The notes below the pieces were generated by a model. It saw only the letters and a list, made by a program, of their open reading frames with translations. It was not told the origin of the DNA and did not search any database. Of a stretch of DNA of 42,382 nucleotides, positions 8,047 through 23,234 are shown piece by piece. The first letter of the stretch is position 1. Every line of letters begins with the position of its first letter. This stretch comes from Gemmatimonadales bacterium. GTDB lineage: Bacteria > Gemmatimonadota > Gemmatimonadetes > Palauibacterales > Palauibacteraceae. Both the position numbers and the translations under genes were made by a program. The stretch lies in contig VXQX01000089.1 of NCBI GenBank assembly GCA_009838765.1, positions 1 to 42,382 of the forward strand, written 5' to 3'.

Positions 8047-8137
8047 GGAAGGCGCATGAGAGGGTTGAAGTCGCGTGATCCCGAACCCCGAGATGATCTT
8101 TCCCCAAGGCGACGGTCGTCAAGCGCGCCCAGGAAGC

Positions 8138-8178
8138 TTGACCGCAGTACCTTACCAAAATAGGCTTGGTCGTAAGGT
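8138..8178 (+). promoter_or_regulatory. Promoter and putative operator of TA pair 1
   Basis: TTGACC (8138-8143), a 17-base spacer and TAGGCT (8161-8166) form a plausible sigma-70-type promoter. An imperfect inverted repeat (ACCTTACCAA at 8149-8158, TTGGTCGTAAGGT at 8166-8178) covers the spacer and -10. AbrB-type antitoxins usually repress their own promoters, so this is the likely operator. Confidence 0.5.
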
Positions 8179-8206
8179 GATGAGATCCACGCGAGGAGGA
8201 GAATCC

Positions 8207-8449
8207 ATGCTCGTCAAGGTAACGGCGAAGCGACAAGTCACGTTTCCGGCGCATGTCCTGGACGTCATGGGCGTCCGACCCGGCGACCGTCTCGAATTGC
8301 TGGAGGGGCCCCACGGCTTCGTCATACGACCACACAAGATCGATCTGTCGCGTTTGGCCCCGCTGAGGGGGGAAATCGACCCCGACATCGAGCCCTTCAA
8401 CATACACGCCTTCCGCGCCCAGCCCCATGATCCTTCGCTACGGGATTGA
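8207..8449 (+). CDS. AbrB/SpoVT-type antitoxin
   Basis: An 80-residue protein with a swapped-hairpin AbrB DNA-binding domain (MLVKVTAKRQVTFPAHVLDV, MGVRPGDRLELLEGPHGFVI) and an acidic, flexible C-terminus that would wrap the toxin. It should bind its own operator just upstream and neutralise the PIN ribonuclease encoded by the next gene, which overlaps it by 23 bases. The start is well supported: AGGAGGAG lies about eight bases before the ATG. A longer in-frame reading from 8075 would cover the promoter and has no domain. Family assignment is firm; the pairing rests on adjacency and overlap. Confidence 0.9.
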   Translation: MLVKVTAKRQVTFPAHVLDVMGVRPGDRLELLEGPHGFVIRPHKIDLSRLAPLRGEIDPDIEPFNIHAFRAQPHDPSLRD

Positions 8450-8828
8450 CACATCCGTCCTCGTGCGCCTGCTCACGGGCCGGCCCCGGGATCGGTTCGC
8501 CCACGCGGTGCGGCACCTGACGACCCTGGCCAGCGACGGCGCCACGGTGGTGGCTTCCAATCAAGTAATCGGTGAGGCCTACGTCGCCCTCCAGTACCAC
8601 TTCGGCGTGCAGAAGCCGGCCGCTCGCTCCGCCCTGATCCAGGTGTTGGGCAGCGGCCTGGTCGCACCTTTGAACGGCCTCTCGGTGATGAGGCTCCTGG
8701 ACGCCTCGGGCGGCGCGGGGCTGCTTGATCGGCTCATCGCCGACGACTACGCGCGTTCAGATCTGGACACCTTGACCCTGGACAAGGCGATGGCCAGCCT
8801 CGCCCGCGCCAGGTTCCTCGACGCCTGA
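8427..8828 (+). CDS. VapC-type PIN ribonuclease toxin
   Basis: A 133-residue PIN-domain protein with the expected acidic site: Asp8 (YGIDTSVLVRLLTG), Glu50 (NQVIGEAYVAL), Asp101 and Asp106/107 (LLDRLIADDYA), and Asp119 (TLTLDKAMASLA). Such toxins cleave RNA, often tRNA, with Mg2+. The gene starts inside the antitoxin gene, which keeps synthesis coupled. The TGA stop overlaps the first bases of a 20-bp palindrome. All key residues are present, so the toxin should be active. Confidence 0.9.
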   Translation: MILRYGIDTSVLVRLLTGRPRDRFAHAVRHLTTLASDGATVVASNQVIGEAYVALQYHFGVQKPAARSALIQVLGSGLVAPLNGLSVMRLLDASGGAGLLDRLIADDYARSDLDTLTLDKAMASLARARFLDA

Positions 8829-13210: not shown

Positions 13211-13318
13211 CGCAGCTCGCAGGCTCGGGGACCGGTGGACAGGGGCCCCCAACTTGTCCTATGCCTACCACGCACGGCAACGCCTAGGGCAATTGTAGCA
13301 GGACGTGATCCCGCGGCG

Positions 13319-14410
13319 TCAGGCGACCTCGAAGCGGAAGTCGTGCTCCATCGTATCCGAGGGTTTGTCACCACGAAACGCGTTTGCCTGCGTCCGCCTC
13401 ACTCGGGACGATGCACCATCGTCCACGAGTGACACGGATCGAGAGAGTCCGTCCCGTAGTGACTCGAAGAGAGTGGTGCGCGCCGCCTCCTTAGTGAGCC
13501 GACGCCCTCCCATCCGAACGACGATTATCGCCTCGGCGGCCAACAGTGGGGCAACACCGGCCCACGCTTCGACGAGGAAATTCTTGTACTTGTCCGCACT
13601 GTAGTGGCGTCCGTCATTCGCCGGCAGGCGGTCAGTGGGCTCTCCTCCAAGAAACCATAGTCGTAGCCACTGATCTTCACGATAGTTCGTCGTGTCCAAG
13701 TAAGGAGGCGAGGTAATGATATCTGTCACTACTCCCCCGAGATTCGAAAAGCGCTCCCCCGCCTCTCGCGCATCCGCTAGCTGCACGCTTCCACGTCGCA
13801 GGGGCGGACGCGACTCATAGCGGTACTCCGTCATGTATCGGAGGATCCGAAAGACATCTCTTCGGGGTGGTGTCAGCCCGTTCTTCCGCCACCAGCTCAC
13901 CGAGTAGCGAGGTTTAGTACTGATCGTGCGCGGCATCCGGTTGCTGAAGCAGTTGGGGGTCCGATGGGATTCCCCGTGTAGGCTGCCCAAAGCAAGGGCG
14001 GCGATGAAGCGGTCAGTCTTGTCGCGGCGCCAATCAAGATGTTCGCGCATGAATGCGATTGGGGCATATGTACGAGGATGGAAGCACAATTCGAAAAACT
14101 CGGCGATCGCCCCGTGCATACGGGGGGCATCGAATCCAGCGCTTTCCTCTTCCAACTCCGACAATCGCGTGGACACGTCCTGTTGAGATGGCGGATCCGC
14201 CTTGGCGCCCGCCACACAAGCGGCCACCGGGTGTACATCGCATCCGGCCGCGTCTCGGCCCCGCAAAAGACTCTCAAAAACGGTCGTGCCTCGGCCGCAA
14301 AACGGATCGAACACGACTCCGGAGAAAGGCGTCGCTTCCAGCTGAGCGGCCACGAAGGCTTCCGGGAACATGGCGAAGTACGGACAGATCGCATGAAAGC
14401 GGTGTCTCAT
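13319..14410 (-). CDS. DNA methyltransferase of the ParB cassette
   Basis: A 363-residue S-adenosylmethionine-dependent DNA methyltransferase. Motif I is FDPFCGRGTT (residues 34-43) with GCDVHP as motif II, and the catalytic motif is TSPPYLDTTNY (SPPY at 234-237), as in N6-adenine or N4-cytosine enzymes. Motif I precedes motif IV with almost 190 residues between, which may hold the target-recognition part. The N-terminal RHRFHAICPYFAMFPEAFV resembles a family that opens with a 'PYxAxFP' segment. The ATG overlaps the stop of the middle gene (ATGA). It probably marks host DNA against the partner gene products or modifies DNA for another role; the target sequence is unknown. Base composition is clearly lower in GC than the flanks. 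Confidence 0.88.
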   Translation of the reverse strand: MRHRFHAICPYFAMFPEAFVAAQLEATPFSGVVFDPFCGRGTTVFESLLRGRDAAGCDVHPVAACVAGAKADPPSQQDVSTRLSELEEESAGFDAPRMHGAIAEFFELCFHPRTYAPIAFMREHLDWRRDKTDRFIAALALGSLHGESHRTPNCFSNRMPRTISTKPRYSVSWWRKNGLTPPRRDVFRILRYMTEYRYESRPPLRRGSVQLADAREAGERFSNLGGVVTDIITSPPYLDTTNYREDQWLRLWFLGGEPTDRLPANDGRHYSADKYKNFLVEAWAGVAPLLAAEAIIVVRMGGRRLTKEAARTTLFESLRDGLSRSVSLVDDGASSRVRRTQANAFRGDKPSDTMEHDFRFEVA

Positions 14411-15399
14411 GCAGCTCGAGCCTCCGCGATGTATGTCCGCATCCAAATGGTCGTTTCGTTCAGTTCTTCGAAAGCCTCCACACTTATTCGCTCATCGCTC
14501 ACCAACGTCGATGCGTCCGCTACGCGCCTCGGCACTCTCAACCTATGCAGCAGATTGCCAACCACTAGAACGTCGTCGCGGACCCCCTCGTCGGCTAGAG
14601 CGAAAGGAATCACGTGGTATGCGATCATTTCAGTGACCGGTTGGCGCTTGGCGAACCAACGATTCTTGAATACGCTGTTCACATCCCGCTTGATCGATTT
14701 AGACTTCCAGTCCGCACCGGTCGCCACTTGGGCCGCGACCAGAAGGAAGCCCGGCAAGCCATCGCGCGTCTCTTTCCACGCTAGCACATCGATCTCACCA
14801 TCCTTCGGGCTACTCGGCGCCGACGCGTCGGCACTCACTCTTCCATCCTTCAGCGTACGCCAAATCTCTTCAAGCTTAGCGATGAACCCCGACCCATCCG
14901 GTCGCGGAAACCCGAAAGACCATGCGGATCCTCCAATTTCACCCGCTACGGCTGCAGTGGCGTAGTACTGAAACCAGCGCCGCCAAGCGTCCACCTCGTC
15001 GGGAGACGGGTATCGCTCGAAGTCCTGCAGGAGCGGAGACACGGACCGAAGGTTAGCCAGCAAGAGCGACAACACGTACGCCGTCCCCGGCAAGTCAAGC
15101 TTGTTCACGTCCAGCGACAGGATCCCCGCAGTGAAGTCAAGCTCGAAGGGATAAGCCTCCTCCAGCACATCGAGGCGCGTTGCGATCCTGCGAAGCGCAG
15201 CATCGGCGATGGACTCATGGCCACGCATCTCTTCGTCAACGTCGTGGTATTCCGACTCAGCCTCAATGTCAGCCGCGTTCACAATATCGGCTGGTGAAGA
15301 CTGTCCGTCCGACGAGAAGGCGGCCAGCAGTTCGAGATAATCCGCCGCAACGTCCGAATCGTGCATGGCGTCGAGTGGAAGGTCGATCCCGATCGTCAT
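14407..15399 (-). CDS. Putative PD-(D/E)XK-like nuclease of the cassette
   Basis: A 330-residue protein without an assignable name. The first 150 residues are acidic and helical (EAESEYHDVDEEMRG). The second half has SAWSFGFPRPDGSGFIAKLEEIW, then KDGEIDVLAWKE (D200, E202, D204) and LLVAAQVATGADWKSK (Q224, K232, K234), followed by a C-terminal helical region. The pattern 'G-x-x-D-V-x-A-W ... hydrophobic strand ... Q-x-A-T-G-x-x-W' resembles a PD-(D/E)XK-type core in which the usual (D/E)xK is replaced by Q. That is an inference by eye, not a family match. It is coupled by ATGA overlaps to both the ParB-like gene before it and the methyltransferase gene after it, so it very likely works with both, perhaps as the cutting subunit. 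Confidence 0.6.
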   Translation of the reverse strand: MTIGIDLPLDAMHDSDVAADYLELLAAFSSDGQSSPADIVNAADIEAESEYHDVDEEMRGHESIADAALRRIATRLDVLEEAYPFELDFTAGILSLDVNKLDLPGTAYVLSLLLANLRSVSPLLQDFERYPSPDEVDAWRRWFQYYATAAVAGEIGGSAWSFGFPRPDGSGFIAKLEEIWRTLKDGRVSADASAPSSPKDGEIDVLAWKETRDGLPGFLLVAAQVATGADWKSKSIKRDVNSVFKNRWFAKRQPVTEMIAYHVIPFALADEGVRDDVLVVGNLLHRLRVPRRVADASTLVSDERISVEAFEELNETTIWMRTYIAEARAA

Positions 15400-16535
15400 C
15401 CGTCATCCCGCGCGTCTGCATCGCGCATCTTAGATCTCATTCGCTCGTGAATAGTTTCTGCGGCCTCAAGGTTGTCCTGCGCGATCTTGAGCAGCACGTC
15501 GTTTCGAACGTCGAAACCTCGGAGGTTCTCCAGTACTCGACGCAGTTCTCGCCGTGCCCGCACTAGTGCAGCTTCAAACTCCTCCCCCGCTGGTTTCAGG
15601 CTGGCCACAGCCTCTCGGAGTGACCCCGTTTCCCGCAGGATAAGTAACGACTCACTGTTGACGAGAACTTCACCCAAGAGCTTGAGATCCGGATTCTGGG
15701 ACTGCACAACCGGTCGAATCCCGTCTTCCTTCGATCCGTATATCCATCGGAGCACTTCGCCCAGTTCATCGACCTGGGCTTCTACGATTGGATTGGTCGT
15801 CGGCTCATACCTGGACCATGAACCTGAGACGCCCAGAAACTGGCGATACGTCGCACGGGCAAGGGCCGTATATAGGTGCGAGAAACTGAACCGCGGCGTG
15901 TTGCGATCCTCGACGGTGAATACGCCCGCCGCCTCGGCCTGCTCAAGCACGTAGACGGCGTGAACCATGCGTTTGATCGTATCGTGCCGGTCTCCGATAT
16001 TTCGGGCGATCTCATCAAGGGGGACCTTGCCCTCACGATACCACCGGGCTGCGAACATCGCTTTGGCGTATGCATCCCAGCGATGGGCACCGTTGATGTG
16101 TTTGAAGCCGATGAACGCCCGCGCCGCATCGCGATCCGGCACGAAATATACGGACACGCTGCCAAGCTCCGACCGATGTCGTTCTGATATCGGCGGAAGC
16201 GGGATTCGTACTCCGGTGCGATTGTGAACGCGTTGAGCGAGAGCTGGATCCTCAAGAAGCCTTATCGCCGCGAGGCGACGGTTACCCTCAAGTACGCGGT
16301 GGGGAGGGCCTTCTTCGAGGGCGATTAGCGGCTCGATGTCCAAGTACCCGTTCGACGCAATCGACTGCGTGAGTTCGGCTAGATCTGCCGACACGTGGAG
16401 ACTCGCGATAATCCGTTCGTCGGACAAGTCGCGGCCGAGTTCGAACAGCCGGGGATTCCCCCGGTCCAACTCAAGGTCGCCTACAGACACCCGCCGAACC
16501 TGAGTACCTGCCTCGCCCGGCGCGCTGCTGGACAT
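15396..16535 (-). CDS. ParB-like protein of the cassette
   Basis: A 379-residue protein with an N-terminal ParB/Srx fold: VSVGDLELDRGNPRLF, ELTQSIASNGYLDIEPLIAL, then VLEGNRRLAAIRLL. The GNRR motif corresponds to the nucleotide-binding GxRR of ParB CTPases. A helix-turn-helix-like segment (VPLDEIARNIGDRHDTIK) follows, and the C-terminal half is alpha-helical. It is not a partition ParB: no ParA gene or parS-like cluster is nearby. I place the start at the ATG at 16535; the frame is open to a GTG at 16610, but that codon lies upstream of the probable transcription start. First gene of a three-gene unit; its stop overlaps the next ATG. Likely role: DNA or nucleotide sensing for the unit. Confidence 0.82.
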   Translation of the reverse strand: MSSSAPGEAGTQVRRVSVGDLELDRGNPRLFELGRDLSDERIIASLHVSADLAELTQSIASNGYLDIEPLIALEEGPPHRVLEGNRRLAAIRLLEDPALAQRVHNRTGVRIPLPPISERHRSELGSVSVYFVPDRDAARAFIGFKHINGAHRWDAYAKAMFAARWYREGKVPLDEIARNIGDRHDTIKRMVHAVYVLEQAEAAGVFTVEDRNTPRFSFSHLYTALARATYRQFLGVSGSWSRYEPTTNPIVEAQVDELGEVLRWIYGSKEDGIRPVVQSQNPDLKLLGEVLVNSESLLILRETGSLREAVASLKPAGEEFEAALVRARRELRRVLENLRGFDVRNDVLLKIAQDNLEAAETIHERMRSKMRDADARDDG

Positions 16536-16592
16536 ATCGGTCACGTGTCGATCCGATCGTGGTGGATGTTCTCGGAATAGCTGGTGCGACTC

Positions 16593-16631
16593 ATCATCGG
16601 ATGATACCACCGACCATCAACACCCTGTCAA
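16593..16631 (-). promoter_or_regulatory. Promoter and palindrome upstream of the ParB cassette
   Basis: Reading on the minus strand, TTGACA (16631-16626, perfect -35) is followed after 19 bases by TATCAT (16606-16601, five of six matches to a -10). A 13-base palindrome, ATCATC-G-GATGAT (16593-16605), covers the -10 and the expected start point, so it is a likely operator. The spacing is slightly long. Confidence 0.55.
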
Positions 16632-16728
16632 CGTAGCCGCACTAATGTCCCGGCGCCGGCGGTCGAATCGCGACGGGACGAGCCGTCGATCGCTGCGACC
16701 CTGGGGCTACCCCAAGTTTGTACCGCGG

Positions 16729-17095: not shown

Positions 17096-19105
17096 TCAGC
17101 AGGTAAGGCAGTTGTTGTTGTTGTGCGAGCCCAGGCTCTCGAGAAGCGCGACGGTCTCCGGGAAGGGCGAGACGCGCTGCACGGGACCGTTCGCCATGTC
17201 GGCCGTCGTCTGGCCGCGGCGGCTGACTACGGTGACGTCGCCCCCCACTTCGACGAGATAGTGAATCATCTCGTTGTCACCGCGCGACGCCGCGTTGTGC
17301 AGCGCCGTGTAGCCGTTGTGGTCGCGGACGTCCACATCCGCGCCGAGTTCCTCGACGAGGTACTTCACGGCCGGCAGCCAGCCCTCGGGCGTGTGGCGGT
17401 GCGCGTTGCCTGCGAACCCCTCGCCGTAGCCCACGCCGGAGGCCGCGTGGATCGGCATCACGCCCGGCCCGCCCGGCGGCACCGGCGGCAGCCCCGAGGC
17501 GTCGGGCGCGTTCGCCCGCGCCTGGTCTGCGGCCTCGGCAGCCTTGATCAGCTTGGCCCTCACGTCTTCCGTGAGATTGTCGAGATCCCTGTCCGGGTAC
17601 TCCTTCCGCTCCTCCTCCGGCAACTGCTCCCGAATGTCCTGGAGCAGCTTGAGGCGCTCCTCCTGTGGGAGTTCGGCGTAGGAGGAGTCGCGCAGCGCGT
17701 TCAGCGCCTGTTGCCGCAGGAACTCGTCCGGCGAGAGTCGCTGGCGCCGGGGGGGGGCCTTGGTCGGGATGTTCGGGTCGGCCCCGTACTCGACGAGCAG
17801 CCTCATCGCCTCGACGTCCGTCGCGTAGGCCGCGCGCCAGAAGGCGGTGGCGCCATTGGTGTCGACGAGGCCGCAGTTCCGGTTGCCGCAGCCCGTGTAG
17901 ACCATGTACCACGGATGCCGCGTGATTCGGTGGTTGGGGTCCGCGCCCGCGTCGAGGATGGCCCGCGCGACCTCCAGGTAGTTCGCGCGCTGGAGCGGAC
18001 GCTCCTGCGGCTGCGGGAAGCGCGTGCGTGGCTGCCAACGGGCGTTGATCACGGCCCAAAGCGGGGAGACGCCGTTGAGTTCGGCGGCGATGTTGGGGTC
18101 GGCTCCGCGTTCGAGGAGCATCAGTACGATGTCGAACTGGCCGTTGATCGCGGCCATCACGAGCGGACTCGTGCCATCCGCCGCACTCACGAGGTCGATG
18201 TCCGCTCCGCCGTCGAGGAGGGCGACGGTCGACTCCACGTACCCCTGGCGCACCGCGTGCAGGAGCGGCGTCAGGCCCCCGATCTTTTCGACCGGAGGCA
18301 GGAAGAGACGACTGAAGCCGCTATCCTCTTCCTCTTCATCTTCATCTTCCTCGGGAAGGCCCTCCGCGTAGACCTCGCGTCCCGCGCGCACGGCAGCCTG
18401 GAGTTCGCCGGGCGTCGGCGGGCGCGCCTCATCTCCCTCGCCGGCGAAGGCCTGGAGTACCTCCGTCTCACGCTGCCGCGCCAGGCGGTCCAGCTTTTCC
18501 TGTTCGATGATGTCGATGACGAGCGACGTGACATCGGGGTCCGCGCCGCCCTCCAGCAGCACGCGGACCGCACCGGCCCGGTTGCCGGCGGCGGCGAAAG
18601 TGAGCGGCGTCTGGCCCCACTCCGCCTCGACCGCGTCGGGATCCGCGCCCGCATTGAGCAGAACGGCAACCGCATCAGCGTCTCCCGCCGCCGCGGCGAG
18701 GTGAAGCGCCGTGGCGCCGCTGTTCGCGGTCGGCGCCATCACGTCCGATCCCGCGGCGACAAGATCCGCCAGGATTGCCGCCGAGCCCCGTCGCGCGGCG
18801 AGGTGGAGCGGCGTGTACTTCCCGATCCGCGTGACGGCCGCCACATCGGCCCCGGCGTAGATGAGCATGTCGGCGAGCTGCGCGTCTCCCCTGTCGGCCG
18901 CCCAGTGCAGGGCGGTCATCCCGTCTCCCTGCGCCGCGTTGACGTCGAGGCCCTGCCGCAGGAGTGCCCGCACGGTCTCGACTTCGCCGCGCATGGCGGC
19001 GTCGGCGACGGGCGAGTCGGGCGGCGAATGGGACGGCGTCCCCGCCGAAACGAGGACGGCCGCGCAGAGGGCCGCGAACCCGTGCCGGAGCCTGTCCGCC
19101 CGCAC
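17096..19105 (-). CDS. Secreted ankyrin-repeat protein
   Basis: A 669-residue exported protein with a signal peptide (RLRHGFAALCAAVLVSAG) followed by at least eight ankyrin repeats in two blocks, for example GMTALHWAADRGDAQLADML, YTPLHLAARRGSAAIL, SPLVMAAINGQFDIVLMLLE and YTALHNAASRGDNEMIHYL. A strongly acidic linker (EEDEDEEEED) and a helical Glu-rich region separate them, and the C-terminus ends in HNNNNCLTC. A cysteine pair in CGNRNC may form a disulfide. The start is GTG at 19105, two bases after the stop of the DUF1552 gene and preceded by GGGGAG. The role is probably binding of partner proteins in the periplasm. The longer open frame to 19357 runs over the DUF1552 gene and is not used. 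Confidence 0.88.
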   Translation of the reverse strand: MRADRLRHGFAALCAAVLVSAGTPSHSPPDSPVADAAMRGEVETVRALLRQGLDVNAAQGDGMTALHWAADRGDAQLADMLIYAGADVAAVTRIGKYTPLHLAARRGSAAILADLVAAGSDVMAPTANSGATALHLAAAAGDADAVAVLLNAGADPDAVEAEWGQTPLTFAAAGNRAGAVRVLLEGGADPDVTSLVIDIIEQEKLDRLARQRETEVLQAFAGEGDEARPPTPGELQAAVRAGREVYAEGLPEEDEDEEEEDSGFSRLFLPPVEKIGGLTPLLHAVRQGYVESTVALLDGGADIDLVSAADGTSPLVMAAINGQFDIVLMLLERGADPNIAAELNGVSPLWAVINARWQPRTRFPQPQERPLQRANYLEVARAILDAGADPNHRITRHPWYMVYTGCGNRNCGLVDTNGATAFWRAAYATDVEAMRLLVEYGADPNIPTKAPPRRQRLSPDEFLRQQALNALRDSSYAELPQEERLKLLQDIREQLPEEERKEYPDRDLDNLTEDVRAKLIKAAEAADQARANAPDASGLPPVPPGGPGVMPIHAASGVGYGEGFAGNAHRHTPEGWLPAVKYLVEELGADVDVRDHNGYTALHNAASRGDNEMIHYLVEVGGDVTVVSRRGQTTADMANGPVQRVSPFPETVALLESLGSHNNNNCLTC

Positions 19106-19107
19106 GG

Positions 19108-20544
19108 TCAGCTCCCCGCGTCGGTCGTGGCCGGGTCGGCCTGGTTGAGCGCCATCGCGCCCGTGCTGTCGCCGAACTCGTGCATGTCCTCCACGCCGAG
19201 GCCGTGCAGGACGGACAGCATCGCGTTCGCCATCGGCGTCCCGTCCGGCGCCTTGATGTGCAGGTTGCCCTCGAGCATCCCGTTCCCGTGGCCAAGCAGG
19301 AAGAGCGGCGCCCGCCGGTGGTTGTGCAGGTTCGCATCGGCCATCGGCGAACCCCACAGGACCACGCTCTGGTCGAGCAGGCTCTCCTCGCCGTGCATGG
19401 TGTTCTTGAGCTTGTCGATGAGGTACGGAAGCTGCCCCACGCGGAACTGGTTGATCCTGTTGAACTCCAGCACCGCCTCCTCGCGGTTCCCGTGGTGGGA
19501 CGCCGGGTGGAAGGGCCGGTCCGACTCGCTGTCGGGGAAGACACGGTTCTGCGCGTCGCGACCCGTCTTGAACGAGATCACGCGCGTCATGTCGGTCTCG
19601 AGGGCGAGCACCTGGATGTCGAACAGCATCTGCATGTGCTCGGTGAACGAATCGGGAACGCCGGCCGGCGCCTCGGGCAGAGCGCGCTCCTCGCCGCTCG
19701 AGTTGCGCCCCTCGACCATCTGAATCCGGCGCTCAAGCTCGCGCACGTTCGTCAGGTACTGGTCCATGCGGCGCGCGTCCTCGGCGCCGAGGGTTCGCTG
19801 AACGGAGGAGATCTCGCCCGACATCCAGTCGAGGATGCTGCGCCGCGTGGCCCGCCGCGCCGCCCGCTCCGCCTCGGTGCCGCCCGCGCCGAAGAGAAGG
19901 TCGAAGGCGACCCGCGGATCGCGGATCATGGGCAGCGGTTCGGTCGGCGACGCCCAGCTCAGCGAGTCGGTGTACGCGCAAGAGTAGTTGTACGTGCAGC
20001 CGCCCGCCTGATCGAGGTTCTCGATACAGAACTGCATCGACGGCATCGGCGTGTCCTGCCCGAAGCGCTGTGCGTAGATCTGGTCCATCGAGGTGCCGCA
20101 GAAGATGTCCGATCCCTGCGTCTGCTTCGGATGGGCCTGCGTGAGGAACACGGCGCTCGAGCGGAAATGGTCCCCGCCGATCTCGGGCGGCGTGAAGGCC
20201 TCGGCGTTCCGCACGTCCGTGTTGCTGATGATCGTCAGGTGCTCGCGGTACGGCCGCAGCGAGACGAGCGCGCTCTCATCGATGATCTCGAATTCGCGTC
20301 CCGCCTTTTTCGGTGCGAAGAGGAACTTCGTCGCGCCGTGCTCGCGGTTGCACCCCGCGAGACCGTGCACCTCCTCGATCGCGATGAGCCGCGTCCCCTT
20401 CCCCTCCGCCAGGCTCTTCGCGCTCGTCGATCCCCACAGACGGCCCGCCGGAACCATCGCGTCGAGGAACGGCAGGGCGAGCGTGGCCCCGACACCCCGA
20501 ATGAAGGTCCTGCGAGGCAGGTGCTGTCCGGTGATGAATTCCAT
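19108..20544 (-). CDS. DUF1552 Tat-exported protein
   Basis: A 478-residue DUF1552 protein. The N-terminus PRRTFIRGVGATLALPFLDA is a twin-arginine signal, so the protein is folded before export. Family features include HGLAGCNREHGATKFLF, SNTDVRNAEAFTPPEIGGDH and WGSPMADANLHNHRRAPLFL. The reaction is unknown. Genes of this family usually sit beside the multi-domain cytochrome encoded immediately upstream here, implying joint work in the periplasm. The ATG is preceded by GAGAGGAAAG. The distance to the cytochrome gene is 48 bases and to the ankyrin gene two bases. Confidence 0.9.
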   Translation of the reverse strand: MEFITGQHLPRRTFIRGVGATLALPFLDAMVPAGRLWGSTSAKSLAEGKGTRLIAIEEVHGLAGCNREHGATKFLFAPKKAGREFEIIDESALVSLRPYREHLTIISNTDVRNAEAFTPPEIGGDHFRSSAVFLTQAHPKQTQGSDIFCGTSMDQIYAQRFGQDTPMPSMQFCIENLDQAGGCTYNYSCAYTDSLSWASPTEPLPMIRDPRVAFDLLFGAGGTEAERAARRATRRSILDWMSGEISSVQRTLGAEDARRMDQYLTNVRELERRIQMVEGRNSSGEERALPEAPAGVPDSFTEHMQMLFDIQVLALETDMTRVISFKTGRDAQNRVFPDSESDRPFHPASHHGNREEAVLEFNRINQFRVGQLPYLIDKLKNTMHGEESLLDQSVVLWGSPMADANLHNHRRAPLFLLGHGNGMLEGNLHIKAPDGTPMANAMLSVLHGLGVEDMHEFGDSTGAMALNQADPATTDAGS

Positions 20545-20592
20545 GTCTTTCCTCTCGGAACGTCGAAGGCGCCGCCCGCCCGCGCGGGCCGT

Positions 20593-23100
20593 CTAGCGGC
20601 GGTCTTCGGAAACCTCCTCGGAAACTTCCTCTTCTACCGCAGTCGCGGGCATGGCCCGCTTCATCTTGAAGGCATCGCCATTCACGACGCCCATGATCAG
20701 CGACGAAAGCCTGTAGTCGTCCCCTTCCGCGTCCTCCACGATCGACCGGACCCAGGGCTGGTCGTAGTACTCCACGCGGCGGCCGAGTGCGTACGCGGCC
20801 AGGTTCTCCGTGAAGTTCCGGAGCAGCGGCAGCGGGCGCTTGAGGAGCGCGTCGACGAGTTCGGGCGGCGTCTGTACCGCCGTCCCGTCGTAGAAATCGC
20901 CGCGCGTGTCGAGCGGCATCCCGTTCTCGCGCAGGCGCCACTTCCCGGTCACGTCAAAGTTGTCCAGCGCGAGGCCGATCGGGTCCATGAACCGGTGGCA
21001 GGAGCGGCACGCGGGACTCGCCCGGTGCATCTCCATCCGTTCGCGCGTCGTGAGCAGGCGGCCGTCCATCGACTCTTCCGTCTCATCCAGATCCGGCACT
21101 CCCGGCGGGGGCGGCGGGGGGGGCGTCCCGAGCAGGACCTCCATCACCCACTTCCCGCGAAGTACGGGAGACGTGCGGTTCGCGAGCGAGGTGAGGACGA
21201 GGACGCTGCCGTGGCCGAGGATCCCGACGCGCTCGTCGCCGGGATAGCTCACGCGCTGGAAGTCGCGCCCCGCCACGCTCTCGAACCCGTAGTGGTGGGC
21301 CAGGCGCTCGTTCACGAACGTGTAGTCCGCCCGGAAGAAATCGAGCAGGCTCCGGTCTTCGCGGATGAGGCTCTGGAAGAGGAGCTCGGTCTCCCGCTTC
21401 ATCGCGTCCGCGAGGTTCTCGTCGAAGTTCGGGAAGAAGTTGGGGTCGGGCCGGACCTTGTAGAGGTCCTGGAGCCGCAACCACTGCGACACGAAGCGCG
21501 AACTCAGCGCCTCGGAGCGGGGGTCGGCGAGCATTCGTCGCGCCTGCCGCTCCAGTTCGCCGGGGTCGGAAAGCCGTCCCTCGACCGCCGCGGCGCGCAG
21601 TTCCTCATCGGGCGGAAGGCCCCAGAGGAAGAACGAGAGCCGCGACGCGAGGTCGATGTCCTCCAGCGCATAGGCCTCACCGCTCCGGACGCCTTCGGGC
21701 TCGCGCTCGAGCCGGAGGACGAAGAACGGGCTCGCGAGGATCGCCTCGAGCGCCATGCGAACGCCGATTTCGAACCCGCCCTGCTCGACGCCCATGTCGT
21801 AGAACGTCATCAGGCCGTCGACTTCGCTCGGTTCGAGCGGCCGGCGGTAGGCGCTGCGCGCCAGTTCAGTCAGGATGCCGCGGGCGCAGGGCCGCTCCTC
21901 GCCGGACGACGTGGGTCGGCAGGTGAAGATGCGCTGGCGCACCGGCGACTCCGACACGCCGGTCGGGTTGTGCGGGCCGCCGATGATCAGATCCTGCAGG
22001 TGCGGCAGCGTCGTGACCCCGCCCCCGCCCGAACCGCCGCCGGCGTTGGACCACACATGCGGCCGGATCAGGTCCTCGTACGGCCCTTCCTGCCGCCGGA
22101 TGAAGGCCGCGGAGACGCGGTGCTGGCCCGCCCGCACGAAAACCGGTTCGGTCTCGACGGGCGTGAAGCCGCGGTCGTCCGCCCCGCCGCCGCGCCGCGT
22201 GTAGTGCAGCAGCGCGACCCGCTCGCCGTCGATCGAGATGTCGACGTCCTCCAGGCGGGAGTTCGCGCCCGAGGTGAAGACGAGCGAGAACGTGTACTCG
22301 CCGTCGGCCGGGAAGGTGTGCTCCACGACCATCCCGCCGCGCGTTCCGAACGGGGCCCCCTCCACGTGGTCCCACGGGTGCTGCGACACATACTGCGAGT
22401 TCTTGTACGTCGTGTTGACCGCCGGGGCGTGGCGGTCGCCCACCGCCATGCGGCTGATCTCGGCCGCCCCGTTCAGGTAGGCGTCGAGGAGCGTCGGCGA
22501 GAGCGCCTGCACGTCGGCGATGTTGTCGAAGTTGGCGCTCATCTGGTCGTTGGGGAGCCACTTCCCGGCGTCGACCTCGAGCCCCAGCAGATCCCGGACC
22601 GCCCGCTCGTACTCGGGGCGGTTGAGCCGCTGGAAGGTGCGGCCGCCGGGGTTCGGGTTCCGGGCCGCGGCGTCGTCGACGATGGTTTCGAGCGTCTCAA
22701 CGAGTTCGAGCAGCTCATCTTCCGGAGGACGACGCACGCCGGGCGGCGGCATCATGCCGGCGCGCAGCTTGCGGATCATCTTTTCGGCGGTCTCGGCCTC
22801 CTCGTCCGCAGCATCCACATCGAACGATTCGAGGGTGAGGTTCCCCGCCAGGCGCCGACTGTTGTGGCAGTTCGTGCAGACGCCCTGGACGATGTCGTTC
22901 GGCCCCGCCGCGGCGGGGGCGGCGGTTGCGGGGGAAGGAGCGCTCGCGTGGACGAACTCGGCCGCCGAACCGACGCCGGGCTGGCCCGCGGCCCCCGCTA
23001 CGGCGGCCGCGGCGGACGCCGTCCCGGCTTCCTGGGCGGTGAGGCCCGCGGAGGCCGAAAGCACCAGCACCAGGGTCGCACCCACCATGCGAATCGCCAT
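20593..23100 (-). CDS. DUF1587/1595/1592/1588/1585 multi-domain cytochrome
   Basis: An exported protein of 835 residues (844 if the ATG at 23127 is used) with the domain set typical of Planctomycetes-like bacteria. After the signal peptide (MAIRMVGATLVLVLSASAGL) comes a haem c site CTNCH, then DUF1587 (FQRLNRPEYERAVRDLLGLE), a carbohydrate-binding-like beta region with GGG runs, DUF1595 (YRRPLEPSEVDGLMTFY), DUF1592 (LASRLSFFLWGLPPDEEL), DUF1588 with a second CxxCH (CRSCHRFMDPIGLALDNFD) and DUF1585 at the C-terminus. It is a periplasmic redox protein of unknown substrate, presumably working with the DUF1552 protein. The ATG at 23100 gives the shorter n-region of the signal; neither start has a strong ribosome site. 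Confidence 0.9.
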   Translation of the reverse strand: MAIRMVGATLVLVLSASAGLTAQEAGTASAAAAVAGAAGQPGVGSAAEFVHASAPSPATAAPAAAGPNDIVQGVCTNCHNSRRLAGNLTLESFDVDAADEEAETAEKMIRKLRAGMMPPPGVRRPPEDELLELVETLETIVDDAAARNPNPGGRTFQRLNRPEYERAVRDLLGLEVDAGKWLPNDQMSANFDNIADVQALSPTLLDAYLNGAAEISRMAVGDRHAPAVNTTYKNSQYVSQHPWDHVEGAPFGTRGGMVVEHTFPADGEYTFSLVFTSGANSRLEDVDISIDGERVALLHYTRRGGGADDRGFTPVETEPVFVRAGQHRVSAAFIRRQEGPYEDLIRPHVWSNAGGGSGGGGVTTLPHLQDLIIGGPHNPTGVSESPVRQRIFTCRPTSSGEERPCARGILTELARSAYRRPLEPSEVDGLMTFYDMGVEQGGFEIGVRMALEAILASPFFVLRLEREPEGVRSGEAYALEDIDLASRLSFFLWGLPPDEELRAAAVEGRLSDPGELERQARRMLADPRSEALSSRFVSQWLRLQDLYKVRPDPNFFPNFDENLADAMKRETELLFQSLIREDRSLLDFFRADYTFVNERLAHHYGFESVAGRDFQRVSYPGDERVGILGHGSVLVLTSLANRTSPVLRGKWVMEVLLGTPPPPPPPGVPDLDETEESMDGRLLTTRERMEMHRASPACRSCHRFMDPIGLALDNFDVTGKWRLRENGMPLDTRGDFYDGTAVQTPPELVDALLKRPLPLLRNFTENLAAYALGRRVEYYDQPWVRSIVEDAEGDDYRLSSLIMGVVNGDAFKMKRAMPATAVEEEVSEEVSEDRR

Positions 23101-23234
23101 CGCTCTGTACGCTTCGTATCCGGGCATCGGGGACCGATCTGAGTTAAAAGATGTATCCGCCTAACAGGCTAAGCCCCAATCCCGCCGTGTGGCAAGGTTG
23201 CCGGTCGGCTCCCGGCGGCCCGTCCCGCACTCTC

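Follow-up and report, generated by a model that had tools for sequence, protein, structure and literature searches.

Gene content and layout of the locus

The stretch of DNA analysed here (hereafter the window) is a contig of 42,382 nucleotides from a Gemmatimonadales bacterium (VXQX01000089.1 of assembly GCA_009838765.1), and its subject of interest is a trio of adjoining genes that encode a ParB-like protein, a putative nuclease and a DNA methyltransferase. The coordinates of the genes and of the features discussed below are given in Table 1. As described in the initial annotation of this DNA, the three genes lie on the same strand with four-base overlaps at both junctions, and no ParA, helicase or classical restriction subunit gene adjoins them in the window.

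Table 1. Position of the three genes, the insert that carries them and the motifs of their predicted products.
Feature	Position in window	Strand	Size, residues or basis
ParB-like gene (gene 1)	15396..16535	-	Open reading frame (ORF), 379 amino acids; in-frame GTG starts possible further upstream (ORF start 16610)
Middle, nuclease-like gene (gene 2)	14407..15399	-	ORF, 330 amino acids
DNA methyltransferase gene (gene 3)	13319..14410	-	ORF, 363 amino acids; PF01555 superfamily
ATGA overlap, ParB-like and nuclease genes	15396..15399	-	Sequence
ATGA overlap, nuclease and methyltransferase genes	14407..14410	-	Sequence
Insert holding the trio and nothing else	13257..16727		3.47 kb; empty sites in relatives, composition shift
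EGNRRLAA, corresponding to the nucleotide-binding G-RR motif of ParB	16266..16289	-	ParB residues 83-90
Helix-turn-helix (HTH)	15957..16019	-	Residues 173-193; aligns with canonical ParB HTH
Putative catalytic core, KDGEIDVLAW ... QVATGADWKSK (D200, D204, Q224, relocated K234)	14698..14805	-	Conservation in 158 homologues

The ParB-like protein and its putative nuclease partner

The ParB-like protein possesses an N-terminal ParB domain, an HTH and a helical C-terminus. Although no Pfam family was matched above threshold, the protein matches phrog_3694 at 1.5e-76, and its N-terminal ~150 amino acids (but no more) match the PADLOC models of PD-Lambda-5_A at 5e-18. The latter is the ParB-like component of the defence system PD-λ-5 (PD-lambda-5), which in PADLOC consists of two components, the second being a D12 methyltransferase (PD-Lambda-5_B). 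An AlphaFold2 model (predicted local distance difference test score, pLDDT, of 93) retrieved ParB, Noc and KorB structures in Foldseek (best E 1.8e-6, probability 1.0) and, more weakly, the DNA-binding domains of ParB, Noc, KorB and SopB. Across 94 homologues the EGNRR segment (E83-R87) shows no variation, and it lines up with G-RR in ParB proteins of known structure; both the ParB fold and the GNRR motif originally ascribed to this gene are thus borne out. Placement of the HTH relies on a profile-sequence alignment with the ParB of the host itself (a partial ORF), which is weak, and on the Foldseek matches to DNA-binding domains.

For the middle protein, none of 104 family members gave a match in Pfam or NCBIfam, and PADLOC returned only stray single matches across the same set, while the window protein matches phrog_14650, a PHROG of unannotated function, at 1.8e-28. 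The best Foldseek matches of its model (pLDDT 96), all of them weak, are mostly PD-(D/E)XK nucleases (MspJI, AspBHI, Can2 and N.BspD6I). On the strength of this model and of the residue conservation described below, we regard the middle protein as a putative PD-(D/E)XK-like nuclease of an undescribed family. A housekeeping role, against which the initial annotation had cautioned, is ruled out by the absent Pfam and NCBIfam matches and the sparse distribution of the family.

Among 158 homologues, D204 is found in all 158, Q224 in 157 and K234 in 151. The classical lysine position (Q+2) is occupied by Ala or Gly in most of these sequences, with K234 instead located at Q+10. The classical QxK arrangement (K226) was seen in eight homologues, seven of which lack K234, and because the two lysines are nearly mutually exclusive this argues for a predicted active site that has been maintained with a relocated lysine rather than a degenerate one. 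The ParB genes that partner these eight form one clade, and the lysine shift would therefore represent one or few events. The previous description of the protein as a degenerate PD-(D/E)XK enzyme consequently stands with regard to the fold features, visible in the weak Foldseek matches and the conserved residues, but not with regard to the lysine, which appears to have moved rather than vanished.

A conserved pair with interchangeable methyltransferases

Because single-sequence scans with the middle protein retrieved nothing from genome contigs, viral contigs or isolated phages, recovery of the family required an alignment of the ParB-like protein, which uncovered 493 relatives among GTDB genomes and a further 98 among viral contigs. 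We read the best 80 of the former and the best 79 of the latter, along with ten loci from whole genomes and plasmids, many of the loci being metagenome-assembled. At least 12 phyla, plus phages, are represented, and of 168 loci with the ParB gene, 162 also have the nuclease gene together with it on the same strand. A DNA methyltransferase or its remnant adjoins 154 of these 162 pairs, and 6 of the remaining 8 end near a contig edge. As ParB was the sole query used to find the loci, the link to a methyltransferase is not built into the sample. The proposal of a three-gene unit is hence upheld in that the genes are conserved together in other genomes, but the constant unit is smaller than had been supposed: the conserved core is the ParB-nuclease pair, beside which methyltransferases of three unrelated classes are interchangeable.

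The window's own enzyme was correctly recognized from the outset as a DNA methyltransferase, as it matches the Pfam family N6_N4_Mtase at 1.2e-9 and carries motif I (DPFCGRGTT, residues 35-43) ahead of motif IV (TSPPY, residues 233-237). TSPPY is kept in 32 of 36 relatives; SPPY is typical of N4-cytosine methyltransferases, which suggests that the window enzyme belongs to this type. Partners of the window's class were found in 41 loci, compared to 68 loci with D12 enzymes (PF02086, N6-methyladenine or m6A) and 45 with C5 enzymes (PF00145, 5-methylcytosine or m5C), the three classes being mutually unrelated. Genes of the window's class are co-directional with the pair and usually overlap it, whereas most C5 and D12 genes are convergent, i.e. 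on the opposite strand. The assertion that the trio is made in fixed ratio, which was derived only from the overlaps, therefore cannot be generalized. Vsr-type endonuclease genes, which are usual companions of m5C restriction-modification (RM) systems, were located beside C5 systems in four loci (L027, L028, L159 and L187).

On a ParB tree, built by a quick method and containing long branches, the methyltransferase class changes at least 9 times, versus about 70 times for shuffled labels, and at least 6 of these changes are forced for one class by well-supported branches. Because of this difference, the methyltransferase class is, as judged from the tree, inherited and yet repeatedly replaced. 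The window's sister on the tree (L040) is 53% identical in both ParB and nuclease and is partnered by a D12 enzyme. The divergence of ParB is mirrored by that of the nuclease whichever the methyltransferase class (Mantel rho 0.78-0.93), while ParB-methyltransferase co-divergence is strong in the window's class (rho 0.89), moderate for C5 (0.57) and weak for D12 (0.18). Two candidate cases were set aside. The first, L041, has its own methyltransferase cut after the start codon with a D12 gene adjoining, and was not used as evidence of a clean class swap; the second, an apparent fourth partner family in L061, L063 and L064, proved to be an antisense ORF over the methyltransferase.

Acquisition of the cassette and its genomic surroundings

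Several same-genus genomes possess an empty site in which only about 80-106 bp separate DNA corresponding to that left of position 13256 from DNA corresponding to that from 16728, with flanks approximately 90-96% identical to those of the window. The insert has a G+C content of 59.6% versus 69-70% outside, and a third-position G+C (GC3) of about 0.66 versus 0.83-0.93 outside. Because sister genomes lack exactly this insert and its G+C and GC3 deviate, we conclude that the trio was horizontally acquired and arrived as a single cassette, its present context being chromosomal. The middle gene was not found in any of the same-genus genomes listed. In two of these the same site is filled by other DNA (about 4.5 kb in G292:C65, L205, and about 1.3 kb in G042:C61, L206), and since the two hold different inserts the site may be a small insertion hotspot. 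A further same-genus locus (L212, G292:C47, 2023-3219 on the minus strand) carries an orphan ParB resembling that of the trio beside an AAA-ATPase-like gene, and no nuclease gene of the trio's family was seen at this locus.

Near the trio, a VapBC-like toxin-antitoxin pair lies on the plus strand (8075-8828), comprising a MazE-type antitoxin (PF04014) and an overlapping PIN-domain ORF that falls just below the Pfam cut-off. On the minus strand, an ankyrin-repeat gene adjoins DUF1552 and DUF1592/1587/1588/1585/1595 genes (17096-23127), and DNA resembling part of the ankyrin gene recurs at many places in same-genus genomes.

Occurrence in P2-like phages and prophages

Forty loci adjoin P2-type portal, terminase or gene A genes, and in E. 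coli prophages and cultured P2-like phages the system is located between the portal gene Q and gene A. The D12 version was present in 20 of 5,426 E. coli genomes; two of these were inspected, and both have it in a P2-like prophage, flanked by gene A and the portal gene. C5 versions are carried by phage WΦ (gp98, gp96 and mth), vB_EcoM-12474III and Pseudomonas phage D14A. Full-length WΦ-like DNA was found in 103 E. coli genomes, E. coli W included, and the 12474III type in 36 at an identity of at least 99%; as a base for comparison, 1,652 E. coli genomes hold a P2-type portal gene. The interval between Q and A is a documented defence hotspot (PMC9122126), and for roughly one in four P2-like hotspots Rousset et al. 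noted a 'putative plasmid partitioning system' (PMC9122126). Should the restriction function proposed below be correct, some of the 'partition' genes in P2-like prophages may prove to be defence genes.

Proposed function and competing explanations

We think it probable that the trio is a mobile RM-like cassette directed against phages or other invaders, in which the ParB-like and PD-(D/E)XK-like proteins would form the restriction arm and the adjoining methyltransferase would mark resident DNA, allowing self to be distinguished from non-self. Four features speak for methylation-guided restriction: a methyltransferase that is constantly adjacent, the nuclease partner, placement in the P2 hotspot and kinship with PD-λ-5. 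The ParB-like protein might load via its HTH at DNA sites whose modification state matters, possibly as a nucleoside triphosphate-gated clamp in the manner of ParB, Noc and KorB, and could then recruit or activate the nuclease, a step that methylation would block on self DNA. Both the co-inheritance of ParB with the nuclease and the DNA-binding domain of ParB are in keeping with a free ParB arm of this kind that methylation would block. Of the two readings left standing by the initial annotation, namely an RM-like unit or an epigenetic system with a ParB sensor, an RM-like unit with a ParB sensor is best supported, with the amendment that the pair and not the trio is the conserved unit. A bolder version, which we advance tentatively and consider doubtful at present, is that this is a new restriction type, in which the part usually played by a classical specificity subunit or a translocase would fall to a ParB-type clamp; the loading of this clamp would depend on how the DNA is modified, and the clamp would bring in a separate PD-(D/E)XK nuclease. 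To the restriction arm it would then make no difference which kind of methylation affords protection (m6A, m5C or probably N4-methylcytosine, m4C).

Several observations weigh against methylation-guided restriction by the pair. Foldseek support for the nuclease fold is weak (best E 0.012, probability 0.92). The Glu-Asn of ParB cytidine triphosphate (CTP) hydrolysis (C-motif 3) is not conserved, the region reading FKHING (K145/H146) in an approximate alignment, which leaves both the use of a nucleotide and a CTP clamp uncertain. At least four loci (L048, L069, L075 and L078) retain ParB and have lost the nuclease, some of the remaining non-pairs being cut by contig ends. Finally, six loci (L035, L041, L046, L050, L058 and L067) have full-length ParB and nuclease genes with a methyltransferase that is absent, truncated, internally deleted or interrupted, which is awkward for a simple type II system since a free-standing endonuclease should harm its host. 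In these six either another methyltransferase protects, or the arm is silent, or the arm needs a methyltransferase to act; a D12 gene lies beside L041 and L058, and two strong D12 homologues are encoded elsewhere in the genome of L046.

Were the arm to depend on its partner, the methyltransferase would find the target and the ParB-nuclease arm would act only together with it, following the logic of type I/III RM or BREX, and loss of the methyltransferase would be an off switch. This accounts for methyltransferase decay beside an intact pair and for replacement without obvious change in the pair, and it agrees with the strong ParB-methyltransferase co-divergence (rho 0.89) in the window's class, where the genes overlap. 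However, one arm would then have to dock with three unrelated methyltransferase classes, co-divergence is weak for the D12 class (rho 0.18), and the D12 and C5 genes are for the most part encoded on the opposite strand, which makes this arrangement unlikely to our minds. We find it quite unlikely that the pair is instead a modification-dependent (type IV-like) or retaliatory arm, attacking foreign-modified DNA or firing upon methyltransferase inhibition (abortive infection) with the methyltransferase as bait or guard. The modification-dependent enzymes MspJI and AspBHI are among the nearest structural neighbours of the nuclease, methyltransferase loss is seemingly tolerated in six loci, and Vassallo et al. 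have described PD-λ-5 as a compacted prophage version of an RM plus abortive infection (Abi) system (PMC9519451), but a type IV system needs no constant methyltransferase neighbour and the weak MspJI match probably reflects a common nuclease fold. That the genes are a partition or maintenance module of prophages or plasmids, as implied by the database annotation 'ParB/RepB/Spo0J family partition protein', strikes us as highly improbable: the ParB fold and the 'putative plasmid partitioning system' of many P2-like hotspots (Rousset et al., PMC9122126) point that way, but no ParA adjoins the genes, whether in the window or at those E. coli and phage loci that are annotated, a nuclease and a methyltransferase accompany ParB, the window copy is chromosomal with an empty site in relatives, and the host has a separate TIGR00180 ParB.

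If methylation-guided restriction is correct, the pair and its methyltransferases would constitute an RM-like system of wide occurrence, with a nuclease family missing from all three curated libraries searched (Pfam, NCBIfam and PADLOC) and with ParB genes that are currently labelled as partition proteins. Culturable carriers (coliphage WΦ and E. coli W) make the system directly testable. It is tempting to ask whether target finding in a restriction enzyme can be the task of a ParB-type subunit, and in what way a single restriction arm works with three unrelated methyltransferases.

Comparison with known systems

The initial annotation knew of no named system of this composition, and in the open-access literature we likewise found none that combines a ParB-like protein, a nuclease and a methyltransferase; on the other hand, the related PD-λ-5 (ParB-like protein and D12 methyltransferase) gives a precedent. 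Like type II RM systems the trio is a small mobile unit of a putative nuclease and a methyltransferase with the methyltransferase gene adjoining, and Vsr is seen beside some C5 enzymes, but it differs in its extra ParB-like subunit, in the replacement of methyltransferase class on one nuclease lineage and in the methyltransferase decay seemingly tolerated in some loci. Methyltransferase-based self marking outside classical RM is a trait shared with BREX and DISARM, yet their core genes (pglZ and brxC, the latter for an ATPase, or drmAB) are absent from the window insert, as are helicase and DUF1998 genes, and its neighbours are unrelated. With the CTPase clamps ParB, Noc and KorB the ParB-like protein has in common the N-terminal fold and HTH, and it departs from them in having no ParA, no conserved catalytic Glu-Asn, and nuclease and methyltransferase partners. 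GmrSD-type type IV enzymes also join a ParB-type domain with a nuclease in DNA restriction (PMC12839542); their nuclease, however, is of the HNH type and forms one protein with the ParB domain, and modified DNA is what they attack, whereas the trio would use a separate PD-(D/E)XK-like protein and has a methyltransferase partner.

The closest likeness is with PD-λ-5, a validated E. coli example of which gives broad anti-phage protection (Vassallo et al. 2022, PMC9519451). In both, a ParB-like protein lies beside a DNA methyltransferase and the ParB halves are homologous (HHalign probability 99), while the D12 methyltransferase of a D12-type relative of the trio matches PD-Lambda-5_B at 2e-94, placing the two in one D12 family. 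Four composite loci (L045, L055, L072 and L074) even combine the ParB-nuclease pair with a PD-Lambda-5_A-type ParB and a single D12 gene. The trio is nevertheless ruled out as plain PD-λ-5. The window ParB covers only profile positions ~4-160 of ~450 in PD-Lambda-5_A, a protein of ~430-600 amino acids with another C-terminus; the window methyltransferase has no PD-Lambda-5_B match among the matches listed; and PD-λ-5 has two genes with no separate nuclease and no detectable counterpart of one, in contrast to the trio's family, of which the nuclease is a nearly constant member (162/168 loci). Judged by these sequence comparisons, the trio is a relative of PD-λ-5 rather than a member of it.

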